The translations under genes were made by a program, and so were the position numbers. From assembly GCA_011959285.1 (NCBI GenBank), contig BLLW01000032.1:1-40262 (forward strand): a stretch of 40,262 bases of DNA. The letters are read 5' to 3'. This DNA is from Lachnospiraceae bacterium (GTDB lineage: Bacteria; Bacillota; Clostridia; Lachnospirales; Lachnospiraceae). This document shows positions 16,792 through 21,963 of the stretch, piece after piece. The stretch's first letter is position 1. Each line of letters begins with the position of its first letter. The notes beneath the pieces were generated by a model. That model ran no database searches and was not told the origin of the DNA. It worked only from the letters and a program-made list of their open reading frames with translations.

Positions 16792-16805
16792 AGGATTCTG
16801 GCTTA

Positions 16806-16838
16806 TGATGCAAAAATGATGCAAGTATGGTTTATAAT
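16806..16838 (+). promoter_or_regulatory. Promoter P1 with two TGATGCA boxes
   Basis: TGATGCAAAAA (16806) and TGATGCAAGTA (16817) stand 11 bp apart, and TATAAT lies at 16833-16838. The last box starts 16 bp before the -10, as at the amidase promoter. There is no separate -35, as in PhoB-type activated promoters. This predicts autoregulation of the two-component operon. Confidence 0.65.
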
Positions 16839-16923
16839 AAGATGCATTCACATACTGCACAGAAAAGAACGGATCATGGGTAAAGGATTAAGATGGAGTG
16901 AGAATGCAGTAAAAAAGTGCCGA

Positions 16924-16953
16924 TTGTGTGAATGAGCTCCCCTGTGCTATAAT
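16924..16953 (+). promoter_or_regulatory. Promoter P2 of the VCBS operon
   Basis: TTGTGT (16924-16929), 18 bp, TATAAT (16948-16953), 45 nt before the start codon. A likely basal promoter. Confidence 0.5.
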
Positions 16954-16998
16954 ATTCAAAGCACAATCCACTACGAAAGAGAAGCCGGTGACGAAGTC

Positions 16999-18126
16999 AT
17001 GAGAAAAGGAATTCTATTTTCATCTGCAATATTATGTACCTGTATGCTGGCGCTGTCTTTGCCTTTTGCTGCCTATGCCCATGGGGCAGGCGGCAATCTC
17101 TATGGCAAAGCGGACGCAGGCGATATAAAGGCGCTCTCGGAAGCTTATCGAAGCTACAGACAGCGGTTCTCACAGATCGAAGACTACGGGGAGATTGAGT
17201 CCGCAGGCTTTGATATCATAGAAGATCAGATATTTCCCATAGAAACAAAGAGTTTTGGACAGGTGTCCTTTGTCCCGGCGATGGAGAAGGACTATCACAG
17301 GCTGGCGTTATTTTTTACCGATGAGGACGGCAGCGTTGTATATAAGACGGACCAGCTGGAGGTCAATAACCGCAATCCCGGGGAAATGGAGCAGCCCCTG
17401 CGGGAATTAAAGGCAGTTTCTTTTCAGGAGCTGAACGGGGACGGAAGGATGGATATCATATTGATTACCACCTGCGTGAACGATGAAGGCGATTATGCGG
17501 GCAAGCCCTACAAGATCGGCGACGTCCTGTTCCAGAGTGAAAAGGGATTTTACAGGGATTACAGAATCTCCGACAAGATCAACCGCTTCAGTATGAACAA
17601 GAGTGTGGAGAGCATTGTTGCCTTTGTCAGGGACGGTTACTCCACGGAATTTCTCTATACGGCAGCCACCAAACAGGAACTTTTGGAGCATGGTTTTGTG
17701 ATTGAAAAGGAGCAGTGCTATTACAGGCAGTTTGAGAAGCTGGGAAGGCTGGAAGTGGTGCCGGGGACTTATACTATGGCAAACTTTGCCACATTCATGA
17801 TTTATCTGGTCAATGAGCAGGGATATATCGTGTGGTGCCTGCAGCCCATGGGAGATTTTGATAATCTGTATGCGCTTAAAGGGATCACCTGCCGGGATAT
17901 CGACGGAGACGGAATGAAAGATATGCTGGTGCTTGCCAAATACAGTTACGAGGGCAGCGGAAACGAGATGATCACAGAGTGCGATTATGCAATTTACTAT
18001 CAGAGAACGGGCGGTTTTATGGAAGATAAGGACATCAAACTTAAGAACCCGTGCAGTGATGAAGATACGGTGTCCGGGCTTGTGGACCGGGCAAGGGCAT
18101 ATTGGGGGTGGAAGACAAAAGAATGA
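16999..18126 (+). CDS. Secreted VCBS/FG-GAP-repeat protein
   Basis: A 375-aa exported protein with a signal peptide (basic MRKG, hydrophobic 5-22, likely cut after AAYA at ~26). Two calcium-binding-like repeats, NGDGRMDIILI (~148-158) and DIDGDGMKDMLVLAKY (~300-315), fit VCBS/FG-GAP blades; other blades are degenerate. It is the first gene of an operon and its stop overlaps the response regulator start (ATGA). Sharing a transcript with a sensor kinase suggests it may feed an extracytoplasmic signal to it; that is inference. No lipobox or cell-wall anchor is present. Confidence 0.75.
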   Translation: MRKGILFSSAILCTCMLALSLPFAAYAHGAGGNLYGKADAGDIKALSEAYRSYRQRFSQIEDYGEIESAGFDIIEDQIFPIETKSFGQVSFVPAMEKDYHRLALFFTDEDGSVVYKTDQLEVNNRNPGEMEQPLRELKAVSFQELNGDGRMDIILITTCVNDEGDYAGKPYKIGDVLFQSEKGFYRDYRISDKINRFSMNKSVESIVAFVRDGYSTEFLYTAATKQELLEHGFVIEKEQCYYRQFEKLGRLEVVPGTYTMANFATFMIYLVNEQGYIVWCLQPMGDFDNLYALKGITCRDIDGDGMKDMLVLAKYSYEGSGNEMITECDYAIYYQRTGGFMEDKDIKLKNPCSDEDTVSGLVDRARAYWGWKTKE

Positions 18127-18782
18127 TTAAGATATTGATTGTAGACGATGAAAAAGCGATTTGCGACTTGATTGATTTGAACTTGTCGGCGGCAGGCTAT
18201 CACTGTACTTCCGTGCAGAATGGGCTGGACGCCATTGATTTGATAGAGGAAGAAGTATTTGATCTGATTTTGCTGGATATCATGCTGCCGGGGGCAGACG
18301 GATATGATGTGATCGAGTACATCCGTCCATTAAAGATTCCTGTCATTTTCATTACTGCAAAGCACGAAGTAAAAGACAGAGTGAAGGGACTGAAGCTGGG
18401 AGCGGATGATTATCTGGTGAAGCCCTTTGATGTGGTGGAGCTGGTGGCGCGGGTGGAAGCGGTTCTTCGCCGTTATAACAAGACGGATAAGCTTCTTACG
18501 GCAGGAAACATCGTGGTAGATGTGGACGCAAGAAGGGTTTTAAAGGATGGGAAGCAGGTGGTCCTTACCAATAAGGAGTTTGGACTGCTGGTGTTGTTCA
18601 TACAGAATAAAAATGTGGCATTGTTTCGGGAAGCATTATATGAGAAGGTGTGGGGCGACGAATATATCGGAGACAGCCGCACCTTAGATCTTCATGTGCA
18701 GCGCCTTAGAAAGAAGCTGGGGTGGGAACAGAATTTAGTGGCAGTGTACAAGGTTGGTTACCGCTTAGAGGTACAGGGATGA
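18123..18782 (+). CDS. OmpR/PhoB-family response regulator
   Basis: A 219-aa regulator. Receiver domain: acidic pair DDE (9-11), phospho-Asp in LILLDIMLPGADGYD, TAK and KPF switch residues. The C-terminal winged helix (VLTNKEFGLLVLFIQNKN, DSRTLDLHVQRLRKKL, VGYRLEV) is the DNA-binding domain. It begins in the stop of the VCBS gene and overlaps the kinase start by ATGA. Proteins of this family bind tandem half-sites spaced 11 bp, as found upstream of this operon and of the amidase. Confidence 0.95.
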   Translation: MIKILIVDDEKAICDLIDLNLSAAGYHCTSVQNGLDAIDLIEEEVFDLILLDIMLPGADGYDVIEYIRPLKIPVIFITAKHEVKDRVKGLKLGADDYLVKPFDVVELVARVEAVLRRYNKTDKLLTAGNIVVDVDARRVLKDGKQVVLTNKEFGLLVLFIQNKNVALFREALYEKVWGDEYIGDSRTLDLHVQRLRKKLGWEQNLVAVYKVGYRLEVQG

Positions 18783-20212
18783 AGTTTTCGTTAAAATTAT
18801 TGCTGTGGACGGTGATCGTCATGGCGGTCGCCCTTGGAATCAGCGGCTTTTATTTTGTCAATTATGTGTTTGAGACCTCCCTTGCCAGGGAGGCGGGGCA
18901 GGCGCTGGATGAGAACAGTATTTTATGTTTTGCATTTGAGACGGCTGCCTTAAATGTGCCGGCAAAATACGATGTGCTGCAGGACAGTACGGTGGAGCAG
19001 ATTGCGGCGAACTTAGAATCCGGCGGACAGAATGCCAGCCGCATGCTGCGCCTGTCTGATGAGGAAAAAAGCCCTTTGTATGCCAGCGACGGTTTTGAGA
19101 CGGATGATGAGCTTTTGGCACAGACCGATGCCGTCACTAAGACCTACCGTACCATCCTCTTGAACGATCATTATTATATTCAGACCGGAAGCACTGTCAA
19201 TGCGCTGGACCGGGTGCTGTATCTGGAAACCTTGCGGGATGTCTCGGAGGTCTTCAATGAAAGAGAGCTGGGATTTAAGGTCTACCAGCGGGTGACGATC
19301 ATCATGCTGTTTTTTGGAACAATTATCATGCATCTGATTTCTTCCTGGCTGACCAAACCAATCCGTCTTTTGACAAAGGCGACGAAGCAGATGGCGGCGG
19401 GAGACTATGCTTACCGCGCAAAGCAGATCAGCGATGATGAGCTGGGACGACTGACCCTTGATTTCAATCAGATGGCGGAGGCGCTGGAGGAGAATATCAA
19501 TAAATTGGAGGATGAGATACAGGCGCGGGAAGACTTCGTGGGCGCTTTTGCACATGAACTGAAAACGCCGCTCACGGCGATCATTGGCTATGCGGATATG
19601 CTGCGTTCCAGAAAGCTGGATGAGGAGAAGAGTTTTATGTCCGCCAACTATATTTATACGGAAGGAAAGCGGTTAGAAGCCATGTCTATACGCCTTCTGG
19701 ATATCATGGTGACCAGACACGGGCAGGTGCAGTTCCAGGAGGCTTCGGCGGAAAGCCTGTTCCTTTATATAAAGGATATGTTTAAGACCAATGAAAGCAT
19801 GCAGTTTGAATTTCACTACGATAAGGCGACGGTGTGGGCGGAAAGCAATATGATCATAACGGTCTTAATTAACCTTCTTGACAATGCCTGTAAGGCATCT
19901 GAGCCGGGAAGCGTTGTAGAAATCGGCGGCAGAAAGGAAGAAGACGGTTACCGATTTACCGTAAGGGATCATGGGATTGGTATCCCAGAGCAGGAACTGC
20001 AGAAGATCACCGAGGCATTTTACATGGTGGATAAATCCAGATCCAGAAGCAGGAATGGAGCAGGGCTTGGGCTTTCCTTGTGCACGGAGATCCTATCCCT
20101 CCATGGCAGCAGTCTTGAGATAGAAAGTACACTGGGAGAGGGAACGAGTATCAGCTTTGTCCTTCCTGATAGGAGAAAGGAGGAGGCAGCCAATGAAAAA
20201 ACCGACCATTAA
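18779..20212 (+). CDS. Membrane sensor histidine kinase
   Basis: A 477-aa kinase. Helix 1 is at ~7-30 and helix 2 at ~175-195, with a ~145-residue extracytoplasmic sensor between them. Then HAMP (TKPIRLLTKATKQMAAGDYAYRAK), H-box AFAHELKTPLTAIIGYADML, N-box NLLDNACKAS, G1 DHGIGIP, F/G2 region FYMVDKSRSRSRNGAGLGLSLCTEI. It phosphorylates the regulator encoded just upstream. The start codon overlaps the regulator stop. The sensor domain was not recognised. Confidence 0.93.
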   Translation: MKFSLKLLLWTVIVMAVALGISGFYFVNYVFETSLAREAGQALDENSILCFAFETAALNVPAKYDVLQDSTVEQIAANLESGGQNASRMLRLSDEEKSPLYASDGFETDDELLAQTDAVTKTYRTILLNDHYYIQTGSTVNALDRVLYLETLRDVSEVFNERELGFKVYQRVTIIMLFFGTIIMHLISSWLTKPIRLLTKATKQMAAGDYAYRAKQISDDELGRLTLDFNQMAEALEENINKLEDEIQAREDFVGAFAHELKTPLTAIIGYADMLRSRKLDEEKSFMSANYIYTEGKRLEAMSIRLLDIMVTRHGQVQFQEASAESLFLYIKDMFKTNESMQFEFHYDKATVWAESNMIITVLINLLDNACKASEPGSVVEIGGRKEEDGYRFTVRDHGIGIPEQELQKITEAFYMVDKSRSRSRNGAGLGLSLCTEILSLHGSSLEIESTLGEGTSISFVLPDRRKEEAANEKTDH

Positions 20213-21023
20213 GTATGCTTTCTACACGTTTGCAGTTCTGGTCATGGTTTTATCCATCTGGGGACCGGAACTGCTTGCCAGATACAGGGACCGGACGGTA
20301 CTCGATAGGATCAACACCCAGACTTCTGAAATAGAAGGAGAGGGTTATCGATATAAACTGGACAGCAGCGAGAAGTTGTATATTCTCTCCCAGGCGTTGA
20401 ATAGCCAGAGCCCTCCGGAGAGCGAACAGAATGCGCTTACCAGGCTGGAGGATGAAACAAAGGAATATCAGGAGCTGGATGGTACCTATGCTTTCGTGGT
20501 CAACCACAGAGGACCTACCGGAAGGGAGATTACGGATGAACAGATTTTCAATACCTGTAACCAGACCATGGAGGCACTTAAGGCGCTGGGAATATTGCCG
20601 GAAACGGTGAAAGAGGTAGGCGGAGGGGATTATGATGCGACGCTGTACTCCGCAATCGATGTGCTAGAGCCCAGAAATAACGTTGCAGTCTGGAAAGTGA
20701 GTCTTTCCACCAATGTAAAAAATGCAGATAAGAGCAATCATCTCATAGACGCTTATCTGGATGCGGATGACGGGAAGGTGTACGAATTTTATGCCAGAAC
20801 AGAATGGGAATGGAAAGATATAGACCCTGACGCGCTGATAGAAAAATGGAGCGCATATATGGGACTTTCTAAGCCCCTTCCTTATGAGACAGAAAATCCC
20901 CTGCTGGAATCCACACCCTATTACAAAAAGTATGTATTTTCGGGGAGCGGAGAGGAAATAAGCATCGTGACGATTGGATTTTATGAGGGAATCAATGAGT
21001 TGTTTTTAAAAATCTCAAAATGA
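20193..21023 (+). CDS. Membrane-anchored extracytoplasmic protein of unknown function
   Basis: A 276-aa protein with one N-terminal helix (about residues 8-25) and an otherwise soluble outer domain. No named domain was recognised. It starts 20 nt inside the kinase gene with AAAGGAGG upstream, so it belongs to the same operon and may be an accessory to the sensor. The C-terminal half has a mixed alpha/beta look (DAYLDADDGKVYEFYARTEWEW). Its TGA stop is also the first of six TGATG boxes. Confidence 0.7.
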   Translation: MKKPTIKYAFYTFAVLVMVLSIWGPELLARYRDRTVLDRINTQTSEIEGEGYRYKLDSSEKLYILSQALNSQSPPESEQNALTRLEDETKEYQELDGTYAFVVNHRGPTGREITDEQIFNTCNQTMEALKALGILPETVKEVGGGDYDATLYSAIDVLEPRNNVAVWKVSLSTNVKNADKSNHLIDAYLDADDGKVYEFYARTEWEWKDIDPDALIEKWSAYMGLSKPLPYETENPLLESTPYYKKYVFSGSGEEISIVTIGFYEGINELFLKISK

Positions 21024-21097
21024 TGCAGATTTGATGCAAAAATGATGGTATTATGATGCAAGAATGATGAAAAAATGATGCACCCTGCGTGTATGCT
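21021..21097 (+). promoter_or_regulatory. Six 11-bp-phased TGATG boxes and amidase promoter
   Basis: TGATG begins at 21021, 21032, 21043, 21054, 21065 and 21076, an exact 11-bp period (four continue as TGATGCA). TATGCT at 21092-21097 is the likely -10, 16 bp after the start of the last box. The layout is that of an OmpR/PhoB-type activator array, and the same sequence stands before the VCBS operon. Confidence 0.7.
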
Positions 21098-21135
21098 GAA
21101 TGTAAGCAGTAAAACACGAAAGGGGCATCATTTTT

Positions 21136-21963
21136 ATGTACGGAAGAAAAAACAGGAATTGGAAAAATAAAAGAAAAAGGAATAGAGAGGCAGGATTTTT
21201 ACAGCCGGTATTGCTTGTGGCACTGACTGTTTTCATATGTACCTATGTGGAAATGGTGGTGTTGGCGGCGCCGGCATCATCGGCTCCTATTTTGGCAGAA
21301 GACAAGACGAAAGAGACACTGCAGATGTCCTGGAAACTGGAGGCGGCAGAAAACATGTTGGCAGTGCAGGATTTGATTTGGGACAAGATAAGGCGTGAGG
21401 AAGGACCGATGATCGTGGTGGATGCAGGGCATGGAGGCGAAGATTCGGGATGTCTGGGGTTTGGAATCTATGAAAAGGACATTAATCTTCAAATTGCCCT
21501 CAGGGTGAAACAGAATCTGGAGGAAAGAGGGTTTCAAGTCTTGATGACCAGGGAGACAGACGAGTTCCTTTCTAAGGAAGAAAGGGCAGAACTGGCAAAC
21601 AGCTATCAGGCGGATGCTTATGTGAGCATTCATCAAAATACCTACGAGGGCAGTGATAAAAGCGTGAGTGGAATCGAGACCTGGTACGACGGGGCAGATG
21701 AAAGCAGAGATAACGCGAGACTCGCAGAGCTGGTCCACCAGCAGACCATCAAGAGCACGGGAGCCAACGAGCGGGTACTGTGGGATATCGCGGATTTGTA
21801 CGTTACCAATAAGACCTTGATGCCGGCGTGCCTGATCGAGACAGGCTTCCTGACCAATCGAAAGGAATGCAGTCAGCTTTCTTCGGCTGCGTATCAGGAA
21901 AAGATTGCAGAGGGAATTGCGGAGGGAATCGAGATGTATTTTTACGCCAAAACAAGTGCGTAA
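21136..21963 (+). CDS. N-acetylmuramoyl-L-alanine amidase (Amidase_3)
   Basis: A 275-aa peptidoglycan hydrolase that cuts between muramic acid and the stem peptide. A very basic N-terminus and one helix (24-45, ending VVLAAPA) export or anchor it. Catalytic zinc residues are visible: H99 in DAGHGGEDSG, a Glu in YEKDIN (~114), H166 in SIHQN, and the catalytic E235 in LIETGF. No cell-wall-binding repeats are present. It stands alone after the two-component operon, behind six regulator boxes, so it is the likely main target. Confidence 0.92.
   Translation: MYGRKNRNWKNKRKRNREAGFLQPVLLVALTVFICTYVEMVVLAAPASSAPILAEDKTKETLQMSWKLEAAENMLAVQDLIWDKIRREEGPMIVVDAGHGGEDSGCLGFGIYEKDINLQIALRVKQNLEERGFQVLMTRETDEFLSKEERAELANSYQADAYVSIHQNTYEGSDKSVSGIETWYDGADESRDNARLAELVHQQTIKSTGANERVLWDIADLYVTNKTLMPACLIETGFLTNRKECSQLSSAAYQEKIAEGIAEGIEMYFYAKTSA

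Follow-up and report, generated by a model that had tools for sequence, protein, structure and literature searches.

The 40,262-nucleotide stretch of DNA that was analysed here (the window) carries an operon that encodes, in this order, an FG-GAP-like exported protein, a response regulator, a sensor histidine kinase and a membrane-anchored extracellular protein (ORF4), and this operon is followed by an array of short direct repeats and by an Amidase_3 gene (Table 1). The regulator gene lies about 2.2 kb upstream of the array. Its product combines the receiver and the winged-helix (Trans_reg_C) domain that are typical of proteins acting on OmpR/PhoB-family operators, in agreement with the original prediction of such a regulator in the adjacent operon, and may well be the cognate binder of the array. 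It matches the PhoB, MtrA and YycF models best, far under the cut-off of each of them, and the closest solved structures by sequence are those of RegX3 and MtrA. The start codons of the regulator and kinase genes are our choice (ATG at 18123 and 18782, starts of the ORF caller at 18102 and 18722). A domain search found no PAS domain in the window kinase. For ORF4 of the window, no Pfam family was detected at an E value of 0.001, and PepSY was found in the ORF4 proteins of 16 out of 20 relatives, with a best E value of 0.0011. When ORF4 was tried as a YycI-like protein, Pfam gave only weak PepSY similarity and Foldseek against the PDB nothing at an E value of 0.001 (best 0.12); the pLDDT was 55.5 for the first and 72.5 for the second structure model. 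ORF4 may possibly serve as an accessory of the kinase. The amidase reaches 146.5 bits with the CwlD model, below the cut-off of 221.55.

Table 1. Features at the locus and the evidence on which each of them is based.
Feature	Position	Strand	Basis
Two-half-site version TGATGCAAAAATGATGC, upstream of the operon	16806..16822	+	sequence
-10 element TATAAT, 10 nt past the pair at 16806	16833..16838	+	sequence
Likely own promoter of the operon, TTGTGT-18-TATAAT, without half-sites	16924..16953	+	sequence; stretch aligns to relatives G013, G019 and G035
First gene of the operon, exported protein	16999..18126	+	weak FG-GAP match (21.7 bits, curated cut-off 26.9)
OmpR/PhoB-class response regulator	18123..18782	+	Pfam Response_reg (1e-29), Trans_reg_C (2.2e-20)
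Sensor histidine kinase (HAMP, HisKA, HATPase_c)	18782..20212	+	domain search
ORF4, membrane-anchored extracellular protein	20193..21023	+	weak PepSY similarity
Six-half-site array TGATG(N), to which three dimers of the response regulator are proposed to bind	21021..21081	+	sequence; Tandem Repeats Finder; kept in relatives
TGA stop codon of ORF4, common to the first half-site	21021..21023	+	sequence; ORF list
-10 element TATGCT, exactly 10 nt past the last TGATGC	21092..21097	+	sequence; offset kept in relatives
Target gene, N-acetylmuramoyl-L-alanine amidase (Amidase_3)	21136..21963	+	Pfam PF01520 (9.7e-53)

The array consists of six TGATG half-sites that start at 21021, 21032, 21043, 21054, 21065 and 21076, i. 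e. in an exact 11-bp register, and the sixth letters are, in order, C, C, G, C, A and C. Over the entire window, Tandem Repeats Finder detected a single array, at 21017-21082, with a period of 11 and 6.0 copies. This confirms the claim of the original prediction that six half-sites are arranged in phase without drift, and the preceding gene does, as had been stated, lend its stop codon to the first of them. The exact arrangement TGATG-N6-TGATG occurs six times in the window, five times within the array and once at 16806; if one mismatch is allowed, there are twelve matches, compared with a mean of 5.05 in shuffled sequences. Tandem direct repeats with one unit per 11 bp are characteristic of OmpR/PhoB-family operators, and the predicted PhoB/OmpR-type geometry is thus supported. 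The original prediction was silent on the -10 element even though the end coordinate that it gave, 21097, is the end of this element, and it did not mention the site at 16806-16838 either.

A fixed position relative to the -10 element is another property of OmpR/PhoB-family operators. We searched the best 80 of 235 loci that encode ORF4, and the window, for chains of half-sites without requiring a -10 element, and counted the 72 arrays located within 3 kb of ORF4. At 68 of these 72 loci, TAnnnT follows exactly 10 nt past the last TGATGN, whereas any other offset between 5 and 30 was seen at 13 loci at most. With a gap of exactly 10 nt between the last half-site and the -10 element, the array occupies the place of the usual -35 region. 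As to the period, in chains of at least two perfect TGATG units at 81 loci, it was 11 at 71 loci, 14 at four loci and 8, 9, 10, 12 or 13 at none.

Conservation in relatives had been set beforehand as a test that could refute the original prediction, and the array passed it. The scan with an ORF4 alignment yielded the 235 loci, of which the best 80, all of the Lachnospiraceae type, were kept; many of them come from the same genomes as the loci of the genus set described below, so that the two sets are not independent. An amidase gene was found by tblastn at 70 of the best 80 of 235 loci, and the array precedes it at all 70. In L241 and L255, the amidase gene is about 4 kb away from ORF4, and a six-site array is present before the amidase gene rather than behind ORF4. 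As the array sits with the displaced gene, we conclude that it belongs to the amidase. Ten of the 80 loci had no amidase match. Three of these have the array behind ORF4, among them L238 and L245, in which the contigs end within 1.4 kb, and L275, in which a polysaccharide deacetylase gene follows; in L259, the array is found 4.7 kb further on at the end of the locus. No array was seen at the other six amidase-less loci (L242 and L246, with contig ends nearby, L250, L277, L288 and L290). Among the 29 genus loci with the regulator, the array precedes the amidase gene in 28, with six half-sites in 22 cases (two of them, L238 and L245, interrupted by one weak member) and four in six cases, and the 29th locus is cut by the contig end. 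Here too, one genome (G012) has the array with a displaced amidase gene. At two loci of other genera, the cores are degenerate and the frame is kept: there are six half-sites in G058 and four in G049, both with the -10 element in register as judged by eye. In L305 / L275 (Clostridiales bacterium 1_7_47_FAA), where the deacetylase gene rather than an amidase gene lies behind the array, one wall enzyme seems to have been replaced by another under the same promoter.

The number of half-sites varies between the relatives, but only in steps of two. The 72 amidase arrays have four (17 arrays), six (48 arrays) or eight half-sites (7 arrays), and thus an even number without exception, as expected for an OmpR/PhoB-family operator with the dimer as its unit. 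In a tree of the regulator, the kinase and ORF4, the number has changed at least 14 times, always by whole pairs, and at least 10 of the 14 changes fall on well-supported branches (the tree was built by a quick method from 82 rows, i. e. the 80 loci, L157 and L158, of which 76 have a state; the window is represented by its near twin L218). If gains of single half-sites were as easy, the probability that all 14 outcomes are even would be about 6e-5, a rough figure because not all branches of the tree are sure. Since the number is always 4, 6 or 8 in spite of 14 changes, the unit that is kept is the 22-bp pair, and this is presumably one dimer. The eight-site arrays, six out of seven of which are from one clade, exhibit a 22-bp period: counted from the promoter, the odd-numbered half-sites are perfect in 28 out of 28 cases, numbers 2, 4 and 6 in 4 out of 21. 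For 14 of the 72 arrays, the count depends on the tolerance that we chose, since one half-site in each of them agrees at just two or three of the five letters; the other 58 arrays, in which every member matches at four or five letters, all have even numbers. Half-sites before the stop codon of ORF4 were disallowed, because the last codons (AGATT...) otherwise yield counts of five and seven. This rule is not the source of the even numbers: the array starts on the stop codon at 54 of the 72 loci (best 80 of 235 and the window), and the 17 arrays that start beyond it are even as well. L251 was set to six, since a count of seven included its TAA stop codon, and L288, whose chain has two members and is 2.2 kb away, was left out. 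At other promoters of four relatives, for which 41 of the 44 strict sites were read, we counted two half-sites in 22 cases, four in 14, six in one, three in two and five in two cases. Thus, 37 of 41 arrays are even there, and as four are odd, pairing at these promoters is a strong tendency rather than a law.

The genome scan for phased sites that had been proposed as a check reveals a regulon. In the genome to which the window belongs, the pair pattern has 45 exact matches as compared to five for the reversed pattern. The eight members of the genus that lack the regulator still contain 101 matches (6 to 21 each) versus six reversed ones, and the reversed control therefore understates the background; scaled to genome length, about 18 of the 45 matches are expected as background. 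The specific signal is the phased chain together with its -10 element, not the pair pattern alone. If one mismatch is allowed, the specificity is lost: this looser pattern gives 76 matches in the regulator-less genomes compared to 18 for the reversed control. Of the 37 genomes of the genus, 29 encode the regulator (80-100% identity) and eight do not. The strict pattern was found at 144 sites in the former and at one site in the latter, i. e. in 28 out of 29 genomes with and one out of eight without the regulator (Fisher p 6e-6, a value that overstates the evidence because the loci and species are related by descent). The remaining genome with the regulator, G036, has no strict site, and its amidase array fits the looser pattern. 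The eight genomes without the regulator are also devoid of a close amidase (best matches of 33-42% identity). Two of them have convincing sites: a pair precedes a lipoprotein gene in G011 (L090), and a four-site array detected in the looser scan precedes the gene of an exported protein in G007 (L171). In the DNA-binding half, no regulator found in G007 or G011 exceeds 46% identity, and in the absence of a close DNA-binding domain the sites of these two genomes are either relics or targets of another regulator; they are the principal observation that our account leaves unexplained. Outside the genus, there are 12 sites in six genomes, one of which has none, and the strict pattern was matched in three of 61 non-genus genomes. 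In G051, which belongs to another genus, the gene of a related regulator (60% identity) is itself closely preceded by a TGATGC pair, but the -10 element there does not fit the longest chain. The kinase match of two sister genomes (L136 and L137; G034, G009) contains an in-frame stop codon despite large sets of sites.

Which genes lie behind these sites? In the window's own genome, eleven exact matches combine the pair with a -10 element at the right distance. One of them (C12:34584) ends with TGATGA and was taken as a chance match. The other ten end with TGATGC and precede the operon, the amidase gene, the gene of ribosomal protein L21, the genes of an LRR protein and its neighbour, an MBOAT/GDSL pair in which the GDSL esterase gene comes after the MBOAT gene, the gene of an LtaS-like sulfatase, that of an FG-GAP lipoprotein and two genes for proteins without a Pfam match. 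Behind the strict sites of G019, G013, G009 and G027, a hydrophobic stretch is present within the first 70 residues of 37 out of 41 first ORFs, compared to 12 out of 37 long ORFs from the window; such a test is crude and does not amount to a prediction of signal peptides. The targets thus are mostly secreted or membrane proteins. Among the targets in relatives, Pfam identifies LRR, LysM, FG-GAP, MBOAT, weak PdaC and DUF1846, and many have no match; GDSL and VIT/VWA are among the targets in further genera. The picture is that of an envelope-remodelling regulon, which looks small in other genera. The site upstream of L21 (L031, C2:105410-105442), a TGATGC pair with its -10 element, is odd for such a regulon. 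The LtaS-like sulfatase gene (L036, C74) immediately follows the genes of a different regulator/kinase pair, which are accompanied by ABC transporter genes.

The pair at 16806 upstream of the operon might suggest autoregulation, an idea that we have dropped. With its -10 element, the pair is at the same place in G004 and 1.9 kb further upstream in G013, and it is absent from the other relatives' loci examined, three of which have less than 400 nt upstream. Upstream of the regulator operon, the sites lack conservation and hence give no support to autoregulation. In G013, a LysM-LRR gene (L326) is located between the pair and the operon: positions 16805-16907 of the window align to 625-732 and positions 16912-17088 to 2436-2611 of this locus. 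According to this alignment, the pair is probably the promoter of the LysM-LRR gene that has remained after the loss of the gene (or the gene was gained in G013). The region 16805-16912 of the window is likely the scar of the missing gene with its own TGATGC promoter, and the leftover promoter may now read into the regulator operon.

We consider it highly probable that the array serves the amidase promoter both as its operator and as the site of activation and that it is bound by the neighbouring regulator as dimers that recruit RNA polymerase. The sequence itself, the phasing, the conservation, the pairing, the spacing to the -10 element, the co-occurrence with the regulator and the type of targets are what the analysis has shown. 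From these, we infer the adjacent regulator as the binder, activation rather than repression, and the involvement of phosphorylation and of a signal. The partner kinase would phosphorylate the regulator encoded 2.2 kb upstream of the array, and the phosphorylated regulator would bind as head-to-tail dimers, with one monomer per TGATG and one dimer per 22-bp pair. Three dimers would then line up next to each other on the same face of the helix, with the promoter-nearest one in the -35 place, 10 nt before the -10 element, and RNA polymerase would be recruited via sigma as by PhoB. Additional pairs would raise affinity and cooperativity and in this way set the threshold or the strength of amidase expression, lineages could tune the amidase by gain or loss of whole pairs (4, 6 or 8 half-sites), and the same regulator would drive envelope genes via shorter arrays of mostly two or four half-sites. 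It is tempting to go further and to regard the array length as a dial counted in dimers: the system would be an undescribed envelope two-component regulon, in the window species including ribosomal L21, in which one regulator reads stacked 22-bp pairs, the number of half-sites (2 to 8) encodes the promoter threshold and lineages retune the amidase by whole pairs. We hold this wider reading only tentatively and judge it possible but somewhat short of probable.

The fixed layout of the promoter also bears on the idea that the arrays are repressor sites, i. e. that the promoter is shut off when the -35 region is covered by the regulator. Repression is the main mode of action of ArcA, which also has the 11-bp repeats (PMC3798270), and one regulator can both repress and activate. 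However, if the sites served repression only, a -35 region would not be needed, and no -35 hexamer is seen by eye in the window; moreover, the fixed 10-nt gap to the -10 element (68 of 72 arrays) is what a contact with sigma demands. We therefore regard pure repression as unlikely. That another regulator of the OmpR family binds the arrays, with the adjacent operon being merely a neighbour, is quite unlikely as well. Many such proteins are encoded in the genome (69 matches to the YycF model, including partial ones and other response regulators), and a site is present in G007 and G011 although these genomes lack the adjacent regulator, but the sites track this regulator in the genus (28 of 29 versus one of eight members). 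The co-occurrence comparison covered the adjacent regulator and the one encoded beside the LtaS-like target; the latter was found in only 15 of 37 genomes and not in the site-rich G019 and G009, and its presence in 15 of 37 genomes means that it cannot be the general binder.

A relation to the WalRK of Firmicutes is suggested by gene order and targets: in the walA-walR-walK-truA2 operon of C. difficile, an exported protein, the regulator and a PAS-less kinase are encoded together and autolysin and envelope genes are controlled (PMC9210968). Yet that the system is the WalRK of these bacteria with a changed binding site is very unlikely. The regulator reaches 182 bits compared to a YycF/WalR cut-off of 340 and ranks only eleventh in its own genome, where the best protein has 264 bits; the site is TGATGC-N5 and not TGTWAH-N5-TGTWAH as given in PMC9210968. 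Because of model score, rank and motif, we conclude that the system is not WalRK. In addition, eight members of the genus do without the system, which would be unexpected if it were essential, and the PepSY-like fourth gene and the adjacent amidase gene also set it apart from WalRK. Finally, the spacers are A/T-rich and phased by one helical turn, as would be the case for phased A-tracts or an UP element; the TGATG letters would then be incidental to a bend of the DNA. This reading is extremely improbable, since the cores exceed the spacers in conservation (1.81 versus 1.17 bits per column, with 0.30 in the leader past the -10 element; 47 arrays called six, for which the finder required the -10 element), the spacers alternate between AAAAA, AACTT and TATTA, and the sites depend on the presence of the regulator.

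With activation by the neighbouring regulator as the preferred reading, the array can be compared to known systems. PhoP of B. subtilis binds several direct repeats arrayed before promoters; it resembles the system described here in these multi-repeat arrays, whereas core and targets differ, a comparison made via family models only. The pho boxes of E. coli are, as the half-sites studied here, head-to-tail 11-bp direct repeats, and the pho box replaces the -35 region about 10 bp from the -10 element. According to PMC4415409, PhoB binds the 11-bp direct repeats head-to-tail, two per dimer, and contacts sigma, and the core of the pho box is CTGTCAT as opposed to TGATGC. Moreover, our regulator scores 195.3 bits, under the PhoB equivalog cut-off of 296.2, and the targets are envelope genes, with no pst or pho gene among the ten targets in the own genome. 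ArcA of E. coli also uses direct repeats with 11 bp from centre to centre, two to five per site, with cooperative footprints; more than two repeats per site are a common finding for ArcA and have been noted for OmpR and PhoB as well (PMC3798270). The emphasis that the original prediction had put on the number of six thus has to be toned down: there are six half-sites in the window, but relatives have four, six or eight, and multi-repeat sites are known. In ArcA sites, three repeats are frequent (27 equally spaced) and place and spacing vary (PMC3798270), unlike in the amidase arrays with their 4, 6 or 8 half-sites and fixed place relative to the -10 element. This kind of array is already known (PhoB/ArcA-like); in the open-licence papers searched, we found neither the TGATGC regulon nor its regulator nor a strict series of 4, 6 and 8 at one promoter. 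If our interpretation is true, it would provide a readable code for envelope control in gut Lachnospiraceae: the motif is so precise that promoters can be recognised by eye, and there would be a candidate for the regulator as well as an initial set of targets, i. e. the amidase, a teichoic-acid-type synthase, O-acetylation genes and many lipoproteins. As arrays of 4, 6 and 8 half-sites occur naturally at the same orthologous promoter, they would allow one to test how stacked dimers set the output, a question that stands for PhoB, OmpR and ArcA, too.

The leader of the amidase gene contains GCATCA, i. e. an inverted TGATGC, at 21128-21133 after the Shine-Dalgarno stretch, as in AGGAGCATCATTTTTATG. 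The leaders of other regulon genes have this word in only two of 41 cases. Within 90 nt past the -10 element, it is present at 46 of the 72 loci (best 80 of 235 and the window) as compared to none for a reversed control word, and it might represent either an additional half-site in inverted orientation or an RNA element.
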